Source: Dictyophora rubrovolvata (taxonomy: Eukaryota; Basidiomycota; Agaricomycetes; Phallales; Phallaceae). Taken from it: a stretch of DNA of 64,000 nt. Below, in pieces: positions 41,301-58,067 of this stretch. Under the pieces are notes generated by a model. It made no database searches, had not been told where the DNA came from, and was given only the letters and a program-made list of their open reading frames with translations. The position numbers and the translations under genes were made by a program. How positions within the stretch are numbered: position 1 is the first letter of the stretch; every line of letters starts with the position of its first letter. The DNA lies in contig CP114124.1 of the NCBI GenBank assembly GCA_029959195.1, positions 1,869,102 through 1,933,101 on the forward strand, read 5' to 3'.

Positions 41301-43184
41301 TGAGGCTATCCGCATGCGCCATCAAAACAGCACCAACACCGATGATTCATTCCACCGACAGTCTATTTCACCGTCCGTTGAGGACTTCCCTGGATTGCGG
41401 ATTCACCCCGAATGGTCGTTGGATGATGTTCCTAGACTCGTTGCGGTGGATGGTACGGCACAAGGCCGGCCGTCGCAGTATCGGACTAGACCGCTCATAG
41501 GAGAGTTATCGCCTTTAGAGCTGGCCATTGTGAAACATGCTGCCGTACTTGCTTTGTGGAAGTCGCCGCTGCGTGATCAATTCGACTTGGATGAGATTCT
41601 GGATATGGTTGAGTTGAAGAAGAGTGGGTGGTGGGTTAAGATTTTTAAGGGCAATGCAGATAAGAAAAATAGGAATACTAAGAAGGGTGCGTGTCTTTTT
41701 TTTTTATTTGTTTTCCTTTGGGAAGTTCTTCCTTCCCCTCTATCTTACATCTTAACGAAACTCTATTATTGATTTGTCAACGTGAACAGGCGCTGTGTTT
41801 GGTGTTCCGTTGGAACAACTCGTCGAGAGACAGGGCGCTGATTCGTCACTTGGTGCTTCAGAGGAACCTTTACGAGTACCTACGTTTATCGACGATGTCG
41901 TTTCCGCAATGCGACAAATGGGTCAGTTTGGTTGCATGTGAAGAGATATAGTGTATTTCTCAACCTTATTATTTTTAGATATGTCGGTAGAAGGTATATT
42001 CCGCAAGAATGGAAACATCCGACGGCTGAAAGATCTATCGGATGCGATAGACAGAGACCCACAATCTGTTGATTTGACGCAGGATAATGCAGTCCAGCTG
42101 GCTGCTCTACTTAAAAAGTTCCTACGTGATCTTCCTGAACCGCTTATGACGGTGAAATTATTCAAGCTTTTTACGTCTTCCCAAAGTGAGTTCATTGTGT
42201 TGTGTGTACAGAAAAAAAATGTTTACACCGTGAACAGTGCTGCCTTCTCAGCAAGACCGTCAACGGTGTCTACATTATATTTCGCTTATACTACCCAAAT
42301 CACACCGGGATACTATGGAAATACTGTTTGTTTTCTTGAAGTGGGTGGCGTCTTTTGCGCACGTAGATGAAGAAACAGGGAGTAAAATGGACTTGGCGAA
42401 TCTAGCGACTGTCATTTGTCCAAGTATTCTCTATGGCAAAGGACGTGATACTGCGCATACGGAAAGTGTATTGGCGATACCTGTCGTGACGGAACTTTTA
42501 GTGAACCAAGACGAGTTCTGGCAGGTTCCCGAAGAGTTTCTGCCTATGCTTCAAGAGAAAGAATATTTCGCGAGTAGTCTGGATTTATCGAGTAAAGACT
42601 TTATGAAGAAGTGCGAGACTTTCCTTCGTTCGAGGGCAGGTGCCGGTGGACGACTTGGCGGGGTGACGTCGCCGCCACCTCTTGCGCTTCCGGGAACTAC
42701 TCTCCCGAATGGACATGCAGCACCAGCACCAGCCAATTCTTCTTCTCGACACGACGGAGAAGTTCGACTAGTGCCGCAGTTGGTACCGCAGCGCTCGGAT
42801 CCCGCCATGAGTCGAGGACGTGCTATGCCCTCTGATCCTCCACGACAACAACCGAATCCCAATCGATTCAAAACAGACTCACAGTCTTTGGAACGAGAAT
42901 GGAATTATGGATCGCCGTCTAAAGGCAATAATTTGCTCAATCCACAGCCACCTCCACAACTTGTACATCAGCCGTATTCTCATCCGCTTCCGGCAACACC
43001 AGCGAAGACTATGTCTGGTGGTAGTGATTCACTATCCGATGCTGATTGGGCAGCAACCCAGCGACTGCCGCCGCCTATTACAGGAGGAAATAATAATCTG
43101 CGGTCTAGATCGAATTCTCGTCCAGGATCGTTTGACGGTTCACCTGTCTCTTCGAATGGACGACAATCTCCACGGCTTTCGTAG
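38302..43184 (+). CDS. LIM-domain Rho GTPase-activating protein (Rga1-like)
   Basis: Ten exons (38302-38829, 38887-39040, 39103-39332, 39403-39563, 39632-39810, 39863-40771, 40829-41686, 41790-41921, 41979-42185, 42238-43184) give 1434 residues. It should stimulate GTP hydrolysis on Cdc42/Rho in polarity control at the cortex. After a Ser/Pro-rich head, LIM1 begins CSACGLSMSG, LIM2 begins CAKCDQALRA and leads to CVGCASAIL. A helical region follows, then a further half-LIM (CMECKVTVEEDC ... CVKCKTCGKAA). The RhoGAP domain near the C-terminal third has the arginine finger in GIFRKNGNIRRLKDL and LLKKFLRDLPEPL. The tail is Pro/Ser-rich. Intron 40772-40828 is in frame and stop-free. Confidence 0.93.
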
Positions 43185-43778
43185 CCTGAGGTTTCTTCTC
43201 TTTTTTTGTCTGTCGCTCATTAGCATATCTTTGTCTGTACGTTTTCATGTTTCCAATAAGTTTATTCTTTGGTTTATTGATCCTTCTTTTTGTTTTAGGT
43301 CGTCGTTTTCTTTTGGTGTATTTTTACATACATATCCTTTGCTATCTCGGTCAGTAGCCACAGCCGCACTTACAAAGTTATTGGACTTTTATTATTCAAA
43401 GTTTGCCTGACACTCTTTTCGCCCCCTTTCTTTCATCAACTTTTTTTTTTTGCTCGTCTTCTCGGTCCAACGTTCCTTACTTCAAAGGTTCTTCTTATTC
43501 TATAGTCACATCATTTTATTTCTGTTTCCTTGTCTACTTCAATGTTGAGATATATATACCATATACCCAGCTTTTCAGCGGTTTCTGACGACTGCCACGC
43601 TCGACAGTACGCGTGAGCGTGACTTGTTTGTGACGTTCTGCTCCGCCCGCAACGTACATACCTTTAACCACGCATCACAGCCAGTCATTCATTCAATCTT
43701 AACCACTTTAACACAAGATATATGAGATTCTGAATCACTCTTCTATATAGTACCCTCTTATCCGTCTTGTCTTCCTCA
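43185..43778. other. Intergenic with an ACGCGT box
   Basis: T-rich 3' flank of the RhoGAP gene, then the KEI1 promoter. ACGCGT at 43609-43614 is an MBF-type core site 165 bp upstream of KEI1; its use is not shown. Confidence 0.4.
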
Positions 43779-50266: not shown

Positions 50267-50308
50267 GCCTGTGACACGCGACGCGTGACGCGTGACGCAC
50301 CCTTAACT

Positions 50309-50664
50309 GATACTAAAGCGTGAACAAGCTCTTACTTAAGCGGCTTGTCAAGCCTCATGATCGCTTATGCAGCCGTTGTCTCCCAGTATCGCTTCCTCCT
50401 CCCTCGACATCGCTTGCTACCTTCCCCTTACTTTACTGCTTTGGGTCTGTTCCGCTCGCAGCAATTTCATCGTACCTTCGTCTTTACCCGTTCTGGCTCG
50501 ACCTCCGTTGCAGTATCCGCTGCCAGGGCCACTATTTCCCCATCTGGCCTGGACTGACATCGGCAGCTTGAATGCTGATATTCTACCATTCCTAGTTGGT
50601 TTAATTTTATTCGCTTCACTGTCGTTGCATTGTTCCTGATGTTATTGATAAAGCCTTTGTATTT
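50309..50664 (+). repeat. Left terminal inverted repeat of the MULE
   Basis: About 356 bp, inverted against 57592-57945 with only scattered differences. Contains no gene; the inner edge fades after AAAGCCTTTGTATT. Confidence 0.92.
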
Positions 50665-51019
50665 TCATCAAACTAACCTTTTCCAGTATAGCCATCATCA
50701 CACTTAAGTGGTCGCTAAGCCGTAAGTCTAAAAAAGTACAAGCCAATATTTGAACCGATGACAGGAGACCATACGAAATACATCCGTAAGTCATCTCATT
50801 CTGATATTTAAACTGCCTAGTTGTTCATTCACCCTCCAGCCATCCCCAGTGTCCCCCCCCTTCACTGCGCATTGGGTTTCTGTACCCACCCTTTATATCA
50901 TTACCAGCCATTTTGTCTCCGCCCTTGCAATTTATTTTTCACATCCATTCGTTTCCGGTATGCCTTTTCATCTGCCTGTTGACTAACCTTCTTTTTTTCA
51001 CTTATTCTCCAGATTAACA

Positions 51020-54000
51020 ATGGATGATCATCAAGAGATAGATTCATATATGTATGTACATTATGTGCGCGGTGGTTGTACTCATTCACACAAGTAGAGC
51101 TAATTCAAGTTGCGGGAGTAATGCCGTCCAACTAACTCTGGAAAAGGTAGTTTCCTTCTATACGCGCATGTGTCTTTTTCACATACTTTCTGGGCTAATT
51201 AGCTGGGTCTTGACGCCATCCCTTCTCATCCAACAAAAGAAGAAAAGGGAAAGATAACGGTGAGTCATTTATTACCAGTTACACACTTGTCTAACAATAT
51301 CTACTATGAGGTACACTTCAAAATGCTCCACTGCGACCCTGGTCAACTCGATGCAATCAAGAAGACGTATACTGGGCATCAGCATTTTCACCAAATTTTT
51401 ACGGAGTCAGATTCGTCTCAAATCACCGCGCGAGAATGTTTGCAGCAACAGAATCTCATTATTGATGATTTAGGAGATTTAGGAAATGGATGGAGTAGAC
51501 GATGGAGCTCGTTATCTCGTGAGTCTGCTGAAGGATGTATATGGCAGCGCATACTCTTTCAGTGGTATGTAGGTTGTAATCATAAATTCCTACAGATGTA
51601 TTTATTTTTTTGAATATATTGTATTCTAAGTCAATCTGGGAGTAGTACCGCTGCAAGAAAGATAATTGCAGACTATAGGAAGTGTGAACAAGGCAAAAAT
51701 AGTAGCAGTGGTGAATGGAAGCGCAAGATGCCTTATGATTACACAGGCTGTCTGGCTCACTTGGATCTGACATACGATCCTCGAAGTTCAAGAATTTATC
51801 GAATCACTGGTATCCTCGATCATAATGATGCCTGCAAAAGTAGTCTAATGAGTCGCGTGCCTAATGTTCCAGTACACCCGCATGTGTGGCAGGATGCGCT
51901 AGAGCAGATAAATAATGGCGCGAAGTATATTTTTGTTTATGGCAAATAATCCGCATGAATTGATGGATTTAACAGCATGATGGCTGTTCAAAAACGCAAT
52001 CAGGAATTATTTCAAGCCAAATTGTATCATGGTCAAACAGAATCCCAGTCTGCGAAGGCCAATCATCGCTATATTCTGTTGCCAGGTGACTCCCGAACGT
52101 TGTACCGGAAACAAGCTATGTTTTTCGGGGTGGACTTAGAAAATTCGCCTGCAGACAATGTAGACAACTGGTTAAACTCCAAGTCAAAATTGTATAGACC
52201 GGAATTGGCATCGGCAGTATTTTCTTACCAAGGCCGTATGAAGAAGACAGAGCGGTTTATGCTGTGCATACAGACAGCAGAAATGAAAGTGGCGACTTGG
52301 GAGCATTCTCACAACAAGCAATTAATCATCGACGGAACGTTCGGAATTTGTGATCGACGTATTCTATTATTCATTGCTTTAGGGGTTGACAAGCAGAATC
52401 GTGGGGTTCCGCTTGCCTTTTTTTTATTTTCAGCTCCAACGGGCAATCAGGCTACTCATGCGGGCTATGACACCTTTATCTTAACAGACCTTTTGAACTC
52501 ATGGACGAAGAGTCTGGGCAAGTGCGAAAATCAGGATTTTGCTCCCAAAGTCGTTATAACGGACACGGATACCAGAGAGCGTGGGGCTATACTAACAGTA
52601 TGGCCACATACAACACTTCTACTTTGCAAGTTTCACACACGTCAATGTTGGACGAACAAGAGAAAATTGTTAGTCAAAGGAAGCGAGACACAAACATTTC
52701 ACAAGGACCAAATAATTAGAAGACTGCAGAATCTTGAGAAAGCGTGAGTGTATATTTATTTATTTCAGTGTTTTAATGAACATTTGCTTCCAGTTTAATT
52801 GATTCGGAGAAACACGTGGATGCCATTGCCCTGGTAAATTCTGAAAAAGCATGGCTCAGCGATCTACAACATTCTCACCCTCATCTTTCTACAATGACGA
52901 AGGGTGCAATATCATATGTCAACTACTTATCATCGTTTTGGTTATCTCGATCTCTGTGGGAAAGCTGGTCAGCGTTTGGACGAATAATGGCTTCTCGGAT
53001 CTTAGAGATTCCTCTGGAGGGTGTGATTCCCACCACAAATCACCTTGAAGCTTTCAACGGTGTCTTGAAGCATAAATATATCCACCAGTATCAGAAAAAT
53101 GGCCGTCGCATTCGATTCGATCTTCTTATTATGCTTCTAATTACGCGGATTCTCCCCTGCATATACACACAGCGAAGTATTGAAAGAGAGTACTATGATT
53201 GGCTTTCCGTCCGCTTTGGTTCCCAGCTCCAAACTCGAGAGCTAATTGAAGTCAAGAAGTCTAAGAAAATAACAAACTCGGACAATCCCGCACTCAGAAG
53301 AGAGTATGCCATTACCTGGTGGTCTCCAGATTCGCAAGTCCATTATCATGCTATTGCACAAGCAATTATTTCTCACCAACGTATATCCGATTTCAAGTGG
53401 ATAGACTCACAAACCATTGAGGCCACCTGTGCAAGTAGTCTCGCAAACACTTCATCTCAAGATCATATGCGCTATTCGATGTCTCTTAACTGTTATGGCT
53501 TGGCGGCATGTTCTTGTCCATTTAATTCAATGGGAAATGGAGCATGCAAGCATCTGTGGGCATTCCGGTATATTCTTCCTACTTTATCATCGACTGTATC
53601 CTTTTATTTTCCATTAACTGAGAAGGTGGCACTCGAAATCCACCAATTATTTTTTCCATCTCACACCTCAAACCAAGCTCTTCGTATTTCAGAAGTACTT
53701 CATGAACCTCCAAAGAATCACTTGTGTGCCATTGCGACTATTGCAAATACACTATCAACAATGGTTCCTGACTCGGATGCAAGCTCTAGCTCGGAAGAAT
53801 CAGACACAGACCAAGATTGGAATTTTACAGATGAAAGTGATACAGAATTAGCAATACAGGTATGACGAACTTAAATTACCTTAGTTTGATTACTTACTAC
53901 ATAGGATTAATTAGGCTACTTCGACAAGCTTGAAATTAGCAAGTGGTGATGCGCTAAAAGAACAGCTGAAAGCTCGTATTACTCAGGAAGTCGCATCTAT

Positions 54001-54347
54001 CCTTCCTCGTCTCCATGGTCTCTCCCAGCTTTTGAAAGAGGGACAAGACAGTCTTAATGAAGTATTAGAAGTTGCGGAACTGCGAACACTCATTAATACA
54101 ATGAATATGACACTATCTGACAATACGGCACCAGCAGAGAGTAATATCGCTACAAGCATGAGCACTTCAGTGGTAAGTTACAACAAGTAAAAAAAACCTC
54201 ACTCTACTATATGTTGCTTATCAAACTCAGGCCTCTAATCCTCACAAGCAATTTCAGAAAAGCAATAAAACTTCATCAAGGCGAAAAGTTTTACCACCAT
54301 CACCCGAGCGAAATCAAAAGCGCAAACGGTCAACTGCAACTTATTAA
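51020..54347 (+). CDS. MULE transposase (DDE and SWIM zinc finger)
   Basis: Nine exons (51020-51051, 51095-51146, 51203-51259, 51311-51564, 51631-51924, 51976-52743, 52794-53859, 53915-54172, 54231-54347) give 965 residues with no break. The catalytic triad fits MULE: D349 in IIDGTFGICDRR, D426 in VVITDTDTRERG, E571 in IPTTNHLEAFNG, with CKFHTRQCW between. A SWIM finger follows (C725, C727, C737, H739 in CSCPFNSMGNGACKHL). An acidic Ser-rich stretch, a short coiled coil and a basic tail with KRKR (likely nuclear signal) end the protein. The first three small exons are the least certain. It should cut and insert the element at its inverted repeats. Confidence 0.92.
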
Positions 54348-54527
54348 TTTACATTTCAACCAAATAAGTTTTATTTATTGTATTTTATTTACAATCGTAA
54401 TATACTATTTGTTGAGACATATTTCATTTGTGGAAAAAACCACCGTATAACCACATACAGTGGTGGTGGGATTCACGGAACTTGCAATGCACACGAAAGG
54501 TCATTCTGAAGCAAGAAAAAGCTTCAG

Positions 54528-57242
54528 TCAAACCAAAAGAAGATATTGAAAGGACTGGCTTACATTCAAATCATGCAGTGCTACAGGAAGCGACCAGGCC
54601 GGACATTCCTTCGGGACATTTACTACGGGTTTTTGGGAGACGGGAGGAATACGACGTTTGATATTGGCGACGATCTCTGGAGGAGAACGCTGCAGGAGTA
54701 GAAATAGGAATTACGGGTGGTTGTGCTTGCATTTAGGGTCATAGTCATGGTAGTGTCATTATTATTGTTAGGAGAAGGTTGATCGGAAACATTGCATTCT
54801 TTCATGATTCGCATGCGGAGCATCATTCTGGAACACAGAATGATTTCAGAAGGTTCAGGTGGGAGAGAACAAACGGTGGACATACTGAAAAGTTGTGTGA
54901 GTAGAACAGGGACGATTGATATGTTGCAAAAAGGAGGCAGTGGTGGTAGCCACATGTGCAGTATACAAAGGAGGTAGTATCGGCTGTGGGCAGATTGGTG
55001 CAAGGAAAAATGAGTGGGAATGATAAAGTCCGGAAGATGTACTGACATTGCTGAGATGTTTTGAGAGGGGTGTGGAAAGATAGTGGTAGACGTTGCAGTT
55101 GAAAAAGATTTCATGCGGCATGCGCTTACATAATGATACTAATGCGCCAACTTATTTGATCTTGCAGCAAGTTTCAAAAAATTTAAAACGAAATACAATT
55201 TATTTTTCATGGGATACATTTAAGAGTCTGGACATTAGTAAAAAAAATATGACACTTCTTTCTACCGTTCAGATTTACCAGGACTGTGTCTAAATATAAT
55301 GATCCCAGACCGGACCAAATTAACTTTCTCCAATGAGATTAGACTCCAATTGATCTTCTGTATACGCAGGTCCAGAGGCCAGGTACGCCATAAGACTATG
55401 ATGAGTGGAATTATAGTCCCAAAGCGATGGTTGTTCACCTCTGGAACCAGAAGGCCCTGTATGTGGCATGTGGTATTGGGTACGTCGGGATATAAGAGCT
55501 GAGTAAAATGTATGAGTGTGTGTGCAAAGACTCGACTGCATCTTACGTGGGCGGGCTGCACTCAAATGCGGAGGAATAGACTCGTTTACTTGGTTATATG
55601 ATATAGTCCCTCGTTTTGGATACCTCAACGGTGCTGGAGAAGAATTCAACGATTGGCGAATGACTGGTGTAGGAATCGAGGTTTGAGAATCAGACAGAGA
55701 TGGTGATATTTGAAGGGAAGGATTAGCTGGCGTGCCAAGAGGTGGAGGTGTAGGTTTTACGAAAAGAGGGCAGTATTTTATCAAGTGAATCTTCAACATG
55801 TCCTTTCTTACCAAAAATGAGCAGTCGCATTTGTCATAGAGCCGCCAAAAATTATCAGATGTAATGCCTTCCCCTGATTGCAATGCCATAAGAGCTGACG
55901 TTAACTCCTCTCCTGCAAGTGGGGGTACATCTGAATTCTTTTGAATGGCATAGTGAGGTTCCGGAGGTTCGAAAAGGCAGTGTGTATCTCCGAACCAGCG
56001 TTCACTTGGTTCAACATCTTGTTTGGACCAGCTAGTAAGACTCAGAAAAATTATTCAGTTGCTAAAATGACTAACGTTTAGTTGAACTTGCTTTGTCTTT
56101 GGAAATGGAGGAATCCGAGTCATTAGAGATGAGCGGGGATGAGAGTGCTAGACGGGGTTGAGCACAAGGCGGAAAAGACAAGGTTTGTTCCACTAATGAG
56201 TCTGTGAATATTTATGTCGAAAAACATTGAACACCACATACCTTCATCGTCGGAACAATCTAATTTTGTATTAATAAAATAATTATTCAAATAACAAATG
56301 AAAAACACTACCGGAGGGACTATGTCTTGTTTTCTTGGGACTAGAAAGAAGGAAAGGGAGCATTGGAATATTAGCGGACACTCGTTTTTGTCCTAGATAA
56401 TTGATGTCTCATAGATACAATAAAATAGTGAGAATGAATAAGAATACCTCGAGGAGTAGTAAAACCTGTTTTTCGAGTTGGTGGAATGAAATGTCTGGGA
56501 GGTGAGGGAGTTAAAGGAGTCAGAGGGCATTGCATGTAGGGGTCTTTTTCCCAAGGTTGAAGCAGTTCCCTGTCATCAAAGCCAGGTAATCCTGGTGATT
56601 ATTACAGTGAATATAAGTTTCTAAAGAAACCTGAGTAATGTACATACCATCCAACTTAAGTGTATGACGTCGAGGATATCTAGCAGTTAATAAGCGTGGG
56701 TTATTCCGCATGTTCTCCGGTGGAACTTGAAAAAAACAAATTAATATAAAAACATACAACTTGAGATTACTCACCAAAAATACCACAGCCGGTGTAATGG
56801 CCTTGACATCCTAAAACTACCTTACGATGATACGGAGAATCTGCTTTGTGGACAACCCAAATTTTGGCGAAATGAATGGCATGTGGATTGGGATCCCGAG
56901 TATTACACGGACAGCACGGCGGAGTAAATTCATAATGCCTGTATGCCCAATCTAGCATACTTGCGGGGTATGGCTCTCCATCATCATTGAGTGGCCTATA
57001 ATATCATCGAAAGAATAAACTTTCACAAGGAGGGAGACTCACCACAGCCATAAGAGAGGCTTAGACATGCTCTGGTTAACCCAATTGAGAATATGACCTT
57101 TTCTTGCAGCTGAATTCATTAGTTCTTTACACTTTGAAAATACTCCGGTGGAGTCTACATCCCCAAGGTCAATGGGTGCGCGAGTGGGTGAAAAAAATTC
57201 AGTAGAAGAAATAGACGGTGAGCTGGTTGGTGTGGAAGACAT
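54528..57242 (-). CDS. MULE accessory gene, Cys-rich, unknown function
   Basis: Start at 57242. Exons 57242-57043, 56995-56775, 56725-56648, 56591-56448, 56392-56312, 56259-56242 (18 nt) and about 56201-56076 join in frame. A long exon then runs to at least 55320 and further pieces possibly to 54528. The N-terminal domain (about 60-165) is Cys-rich: HYEFTPPCCPCNTRDPNPHA ... VVLGCQGHYTGCGIFV, a likely zinc site. The middle is Pro/Ser/Thr-rich. A second module follows: ITSDNFWRLYDKCDCSFLV and HLIKYC, a possible CxC...H...C metal site. No enzyme motif. It is convergent with the transposase and fully inside the repeats. A role in transposition, DNA binding or silencing evasion is only inferred. 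The junction near 56050 and the 3' end are uncertain. Confidence 0.7.
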
Positions 57243-57591
57243 ATTGGAGAGTGAGAGTCAGAAAAGGGTGTTGCACACGAAATGGAGTGGGCGGATGAGA
57301 GACTCAGGATGCACTGACACGGTATTTATGTGTTGAAAAAAAAACATTAAATTCGAATGAAAATTTTATTCAACAAACTAAACAACAAAATTTCGAGGAG
57401 TTGCATGGCCGGCAAGTAGTAGAGTGTATGCCGAGGGCGAATAGGAAATGGTTTTATGACAGAATTTGAAACTTTGAAAGCTATTCAAATTTCTTGTTAA
57501 ACTTAATGGGGAAAGCTTTCAGTCGCGAACCAACTTACATGCCAAACTGGTAATACTTATGCCTAATACGGAAAAGCACTTCTTAGCAGAA

Positions 57592-57945
57592 ATACAAAGG
57601 CTTTATCAAAAAGTGTCAGGCACAATGCAATGACGACGAAGCGAATGGAACAAACTAACTAGAAATGGTAGAATATCAGCACTCAAGCCACCGATGCTGG
57701 TCCAGGCCAGATGGGGAAATAGTGGCCCTAGCAGCGGATACTGCAACGGAGGTCGAGCCAGAACGGGTAAAGACGAAGGTACGATGAAATTGCTGCGAGC
57801 GGAACAGACCCAAAGCAGTAAAGTAAGGGGAAGGTAGCAAGCGATGTCGAGGGAGGAGGAAGCGATACTGGGAGACAACGGCTGCATAAGCGATCATGAG
57901 GCTTGACAAGCCGCTTAAGTAAGAGCTTGTTCACGCTTTAGTATC
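57592..57945 (-). repeat. Right terminal inverted repeat of the MULE
   Basis: Inverted match of the left repeat; the outer end reads GCTTTAGTATC directly before the target duplication. Confidence 0.92.
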
Positions 57946-58067
57946 CCCTTAACTCGTGTCAGTTCGACGAGCTTCAAGTTCAAAAGGCTCGTTGAAACAG
58001 CTGTAGGTTGAAATTATTTGGTGTAAAGTGTTGCGCACACATCTAATGAGAAGTTGGATATAAGGCT

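Follow-up and report, generated by a model that had tools for sequence, protein, structure and literature searches.

The stretch of DNA analysed here (64,000 nucleotides, called the window below) contains at positions 50309-57945 a Mutator-like element (MULE) of 7,637 bp, which is regarded, with a probability of about 0.85, as a complete and probably autonomous DNA transposon. The features that place it in the MULE superfamily are terminal inverted repeats (TIRs) of 356 bp, a target-site duplication (TSD) of 9 bp (8-11 bp being the range used for the superfamily) and a MULE-type DDE transposase domain. Besides the transposase gene it carries a second gene that is conserved in a distant relative on another contig, C9, and the complete two-gene MULE of the original prediction is thereby upheld. 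The main addition to that prediction is that gene 2, judged by sequence comparison, has been paired with the transposase since well before the lineages of the window and C9 elements diverged.

The limits of the element are given by the following features:

50300..50308, no strand: left target-site duplication, CCCTTAACT
50309..50664, plus strand: left terminal inverted repeat, 356 bp, with 1 difference from the right repeat in the outer 246 columns
57590..57945, minus strand: right terminal inverted repeat, 356 bp
57946..57954, no strand: right target-site duplication, CCCTTAACT

By direct reading the duplication is exactly nine bases long, the bases beyond it being different on either side, and the chance of a perfect 9-mer standing exactly at both edges of the element is arithmetically about 4^-9. 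Both ends open with GATACTAAAGCGTGAACAAG when read inward from 50309 and from 57945. The perfect 9-bp duplication that had been predicted was found exactly at both edges, the limits 50309..57945 needed no correction, and the inverted repeats, estimated earlier at about 355 bp, measure 356 bp each. The accompanying claim of nearly identical ends holds for the outer two thirds only: the aligned repeats disagree at 22 of 357 columns, including 2 gaps, and these differences are unevenly distributed, one falling in the outer 246 columns and 21 in the inner 111 (P 3.4e-10 under an even distribution). This distribution points to a mosaic, in which the outer part looks as if it had been converted or constrained. 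Short tandem repeats of GACGCGT occupy positions 50280-50299, immediately to the left of the insertion site.

The two genes of the element are convergent and both contain introns. Their exon models were built manually from homology and consensus splice signals, with the C9 homologue as a guide, and are listed here:

51020..54347, plus strand: gene 1, MULE transposase of 965 aa (homology-guided splice model; Pfam PF10551; C9 homologue)
51020-51051, 51095-51146, 51203-51259, 51311-51564, 51631-51924, plus strand: modelled exons 1-5 of gene 1
51976-52743, 52794-53859, 53915-54172, 54231-54347, plus strand: modelled exons 6-9 of gene 1
55320..57242, minus strand: gene 2, 521-aa protein without a recognised family (splice model; homologue in the C9 element)
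57242-57043, 56995-56775, 56725-56648, 56591-56448, minus strand: modelled exons 1-4 of gene 2
56392-56312, 56259-56242, 56201-56076, 56017-55320, minus strand: modelled exons 5-8 of gene 2

The model of gene 1 consists of 9 exons, the first two short ones being its least certain parts, and 8 introns of 43-66 bp, after removal of which the frame is unbroken. Residues 346-451 match the Pfam MULE family PF10551 with 41.2 bits (cut-off 27.6), and the ZSWIM1/3 RNase H-like Pfam profile is matched with 16.8 bits, below its cut-off of 27.2. A SWIM-like motif, C725-x-C727-x9-C737-x-H739, scores 13 bits against Pfam SWIM, below the cut-off of 19.6, and the putative catalytic positions are D349, D426 and/or D428, and E571; both these positions and the CxCx9CxH spacing are present in the window and C9 transposases alike. 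The unbroken DDE/SWIM transposase described earlier stands insofar as the gene is open once its eight introns are removed and PF10551 is matched above cut-off, but it is spread over nine modelled exons and is not one frame.

In the model of gene 2 the last acceptor was placed so that the frame conserved in C9 is kept. The whole protein matched no Pfam family at E<=5, and two conserved exon pieces of the window gene matched none at E<=10; the C9 counterpart of one of these pieces gave a match to zf_C2HC_14 at E 0.09 and 13.1 bits, below the cut-off of 25. No significant match was noticed in a PDB profile search with the two conserved pieces, one of which reached a ribosomal protein at E 1.2 and the other nothing. 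The fold was predicted in a single run with low confidence (mean pLDDT 42.6), and a GRF-type zinc finger considered for exon 2 was supported neither by Pfam nor by this fold. Between the genes lies an open reading frame of 163 aa on the minus strand (54623-55114), which was taken as chance because it has no Pfam match at E<=1 and the intergenic gap of the C9 element is only 406 bp.

The number of copies was assessed in the genome of 28.24 Mb, assembled in 11 contigs (among them C3, C7 and C9). A search of the rest of the assembly with the end repeat, proposed together with the original prediction, was carried out with positions 50318-50680, inside the left end, as the probe and gave at least three places, namely the two ends of the element and one further place, C3:46832-47178, these counts being lower bounds. 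The genome thus yielded one complete copy, that of the window, a fragment on C3 and the diverged relative on C9, and no short deleted derivatives were found in the genome searches. When up to 3 mismatches were allowed, the terminal 18-mer occurred at 33 places versus 19 for a backward control, exactly only at the three known ends; the two closest of the 30 inexact matches (2 mismatches) had no similarity past 17 tip bases. Relatives were also sought among viral contigs (49 pattern matches, then 34) and among bacterial and archaeal genome contigs (47 pattern matches), with none confirmed in either set.

The C3 copy (C3:44635-47187) corresponds to the right-hand 2.55 kb of the element. It is considered a separate insertion and not a segmental duplication, because it stops at the repeat tip and the flank there is unlike that of the window. 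At the break on its other side, where CTATGATGAG stands in the window and CTATAATTAG at the end of C7, C3 switches from the element to DNA shared with C7 over 226 bp at 96.9% identity. This subtelomeric stretch, common to C3 44419-44644 and C7 2429900-2430125, directly adjoins the truncated copy on C3. Since the passage into C7-shared DNA lies about 0.9 kb from a TAAACCC array, the left part of the copy was apparently lost to a subtelomeric rearrangement.

Several other observations were made on these contigs. On C3, at 43134-43727, TTTAGGG and then TAAACCC telomere arrays face each other across 100 N (43417-43516), which is most likely a scaffolding error joining a chromosome end of about 43 kb to another end. 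The 7-base telomere unit TTTAGGG is common in plants rather than in fungi. A weak MULE-domain match on the minus strand of C7 (2428480-2428746; 26.3 bits, below cut-off), roughly 1.4 kb away from the terminal TTTAGGG array that starts near 2430130, was missed by both the window and the C9 transposase queries and is taken as another family or a relic. The PF20151 family (DUF6533), which is expanded in Agaricomycetes, gave at least 144 scored matches (150 of 217 candidates in the genome were scored), with C7 holding many of them, and no match in 14 control genomes; this makes it likely that the host is a basidiomycete.

It had been supposed that the near identity of the ends points to recent movement. 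This inference fails: at each of the 22 columns that distinguish the two ends of the window element, the C3 copy carries the right-end type in its own right end, so the differences between left and right ends arose before the copies split. Dating by TIR identity was rejected for this reason and also because the mosaic spread of the differences suggests conversion or constraint of the outer part. Recent movement is nevertheless likely when judged from the comparison with C3. Over 2,550 aligned bases the two copies differ by 10 substitutions and by three inserted bases at two places, and their gene 2 products by 2 amino acids before the break. All ten substitutions are transitions and nine fall in CpG sites, of which 7 are intact in the window copy and 2 in C3, the compared window stretch holding 84 CpG; the tenth, at 55400, lies at the junction itself, the other nine being internal. 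The simplest reading would be a recent common source of the window and C3 copies followed by deamination of methylated CpG, and the substitution pattern suggests that the host probably methylates the CpG of this family. The ratio of observed to expected CpG is 0.77 in the element vs 0.94 in the rest of the window, therefore the element may be silenced.

These data also bear on an alternative, a silenced or dead relic which seems intact only through its youth. Such a relic is a real possibility, although one held at below even odds: the decay between copies is of CpG type at nine of nine internal substitutions, the element is depleted in CpG and one complete copy was found, but both window genes are open over their full spliced length and the target-site duplication is perfect.

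The second gene is supported by the relative at C9:1442301-1449034, which is flanked on both sides by its own 9-bp duplication, CATGCGGAG; in a scripted search no other pairs of ends were found that combine an exact 8-11-bp repeat with 10 of 14 matching tip bases. Its tip repeat is short, with 20 of the first 23 bases alike, and blastn alone gives a 22-nt match (E 0.009). The extreme tips of the window and C9 elements are no more than suggestive of homology, as 201 of 40,000 random window 23-mers do as well on the C9 right tip; against the left tip of C9 the score of the window tip is lower (2 vs 6). Both elements carry the same two genes in the same convergent layout. The C9 transposase model (986 aa) is 43% identical to gene 1 over 947 aligned columns, and the C9 gene 2 model (478 aa) is 26% identical to the window protein over 427 columns (blastp E 1e-28), with 121 bits against 33.5 for the best of 500 shuffles. 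Of the 8 intron sites of window gene 1, 5 coincide with those of C9 in column and phase and three do not; in gene 2 this is true of 3 of 7, while two more fall within 1 and 4 columns and two disagree. The comparison is not fully independent, each model having been drawn with the other in view. A second gene has thus been kept with the transposase across two element lineages of one genome. Since the relative shares the genes and their layout and has a 9-bp duplication of its own, gene 2 is a long-kept part of the element lineage and not a recent passenger. The second gene claimed by the original prediction gains a 521-aa model backed by this homologue.

MULEs carrying captured host genes are known as Pack-MULEs. 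It is unlikely that gene 2 is a passenger of this kind without a role in transposition. The propensity of MULEs to acquire host gene fragments, noted in the available text of PMC6446971, and the lack of a recognised transposition domain in gene 2 would fit such an origin, but the same colinear gene with shared intron positions occurs in a relative with no more than 43% identity in the transposase, and gene-2 pieces searched in the genome matched only the window, C3 and C9 elements, with no host copy elsewhere. Moreover, third codon positions of gene 2 agree between window and C9 at only 0.29 (412 aligned codons; identities biased by the protein-guided alignment and used solely as a sign that third positions approach saturation), yet the frames are open over 478 and 521 codons. 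Finally, an assembly artefact in which the repeats are mis-joined flanks is highly improbable: one dubious join does occur in the same assembly (the facing arrays on C3), but there is no N in 50300-57954, the target-site duplication is exact and the same architecture is found in the relative on another contig.

Several known systems resemble the complete two-gene transposon proposed here. MuDR of maize has long TIRs, a 9-bp TSD and a convergent gene layout, and each of its genes is transcribed inward from its own terminal repeat. As described in part of PMC6446971, MuDR combines a transposase gene with a second gene (mudrA and mudrB), and mudrB, of unknown function but apparently required for integration, is likened to gene 2 by description alone. 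The closest fungal counterpart is Mutyl of Yarrowia lipolytica, with 7,413 bp, 22-bp imperfect TIRs, a 9-bp TSD and a second protein whose function is unknown according to the accessible part of PMC5014426; its genes are mutA/mudrA and mutB/mudrB. The likeness lies in the two-gene plan of a fungal MULE, the similar size and the 9-bp TSD, and the 22-bp imperfect TIR of Mutyl resembles that of the C9 relative (PMC5014426 and PMC6446971, both in part). In contrast, the host of Mutyl is an ascomycete, the TIRs of the window element measure 356 bp and its genes are modelled with many introns, and gene 2 and MutB are likened by description alone. The orientation of MutB is given as 'same' in the text and 'antisens' in a table of the accessible portion of PMC6446971, and in most strains mutB is missing or too degenerate for identification, as stated in an excerpt of PMC9865632. 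The window element, probably from another phylum, is apparently of the same kind as Mutyl; its repeats are longer and its genes rich in introns. Hop of Fusarium oxysporum is likewise a fungal MULE with a 9-bp TSD, but it has 99-bp TIRs and an 836-aa transposase, and a second gene is not mentioned in the available passages of PMC5014426. The Vandal/Hiun elements of Arabidopsis are MULEs with extra genes (PMC6446971, in part), compared here by description alone; Vandal families encode a protein that regulates silencing of their own element (PMC12730594, in part). Second-ORF MULEs are known in several groups, including Mutyl and some ascomycete elements, and the subgroup that contains Basidiomycota has one ORF in the accessible sections of PMC6446971. 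Among the matches listed in a search of titles and abstract beginnings of open-licence papers, no basidiomycete two-gene MULE was present.

A mechanism can be proposed in which the gene-1 transposase would bind the long end repeats, of which the outer ~245 bp have stayed alike, excise the element and insert it with a 9-bp staggered cut, as in MULEs generally. As each gene starts approximately 350 bp inside its repeat (355 bp from the inner edge of the left repeat for gene 1 and 347 bp from that of the right one for gene 2, from the coordinates), transcription of each probably runs inward from the adjoining end repeat. Gene 2 may be an element-encoded helper acting on element DNA, most likely for integration or against host silencing; mudrB offers a parallel for the first role and the Vandal protein for the second, and given the CpG pattern an anti-silencing role is plausible, though not clearly preferred. 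It is suggested only tentatively, as a rather doubtful extension, that gene 2 founds a new basidiomycete family of MULE accessory proteins that aid integration or escape from CpG methylation, independent of mudrB, MutB and the Vandal anti-silencing protein. If this is true, the two-gene plan would have arisen repeatedly in MULEs.

What is described here is a full-length two-gene MULE, probably from a fungus of the mushroom class, together with a diverged two-gene relative that serves as an internal control. The element could help to test the function of MULE second genes outside plants and, if it moves, might become a possible gene-tagging tool for basidiomycetes.
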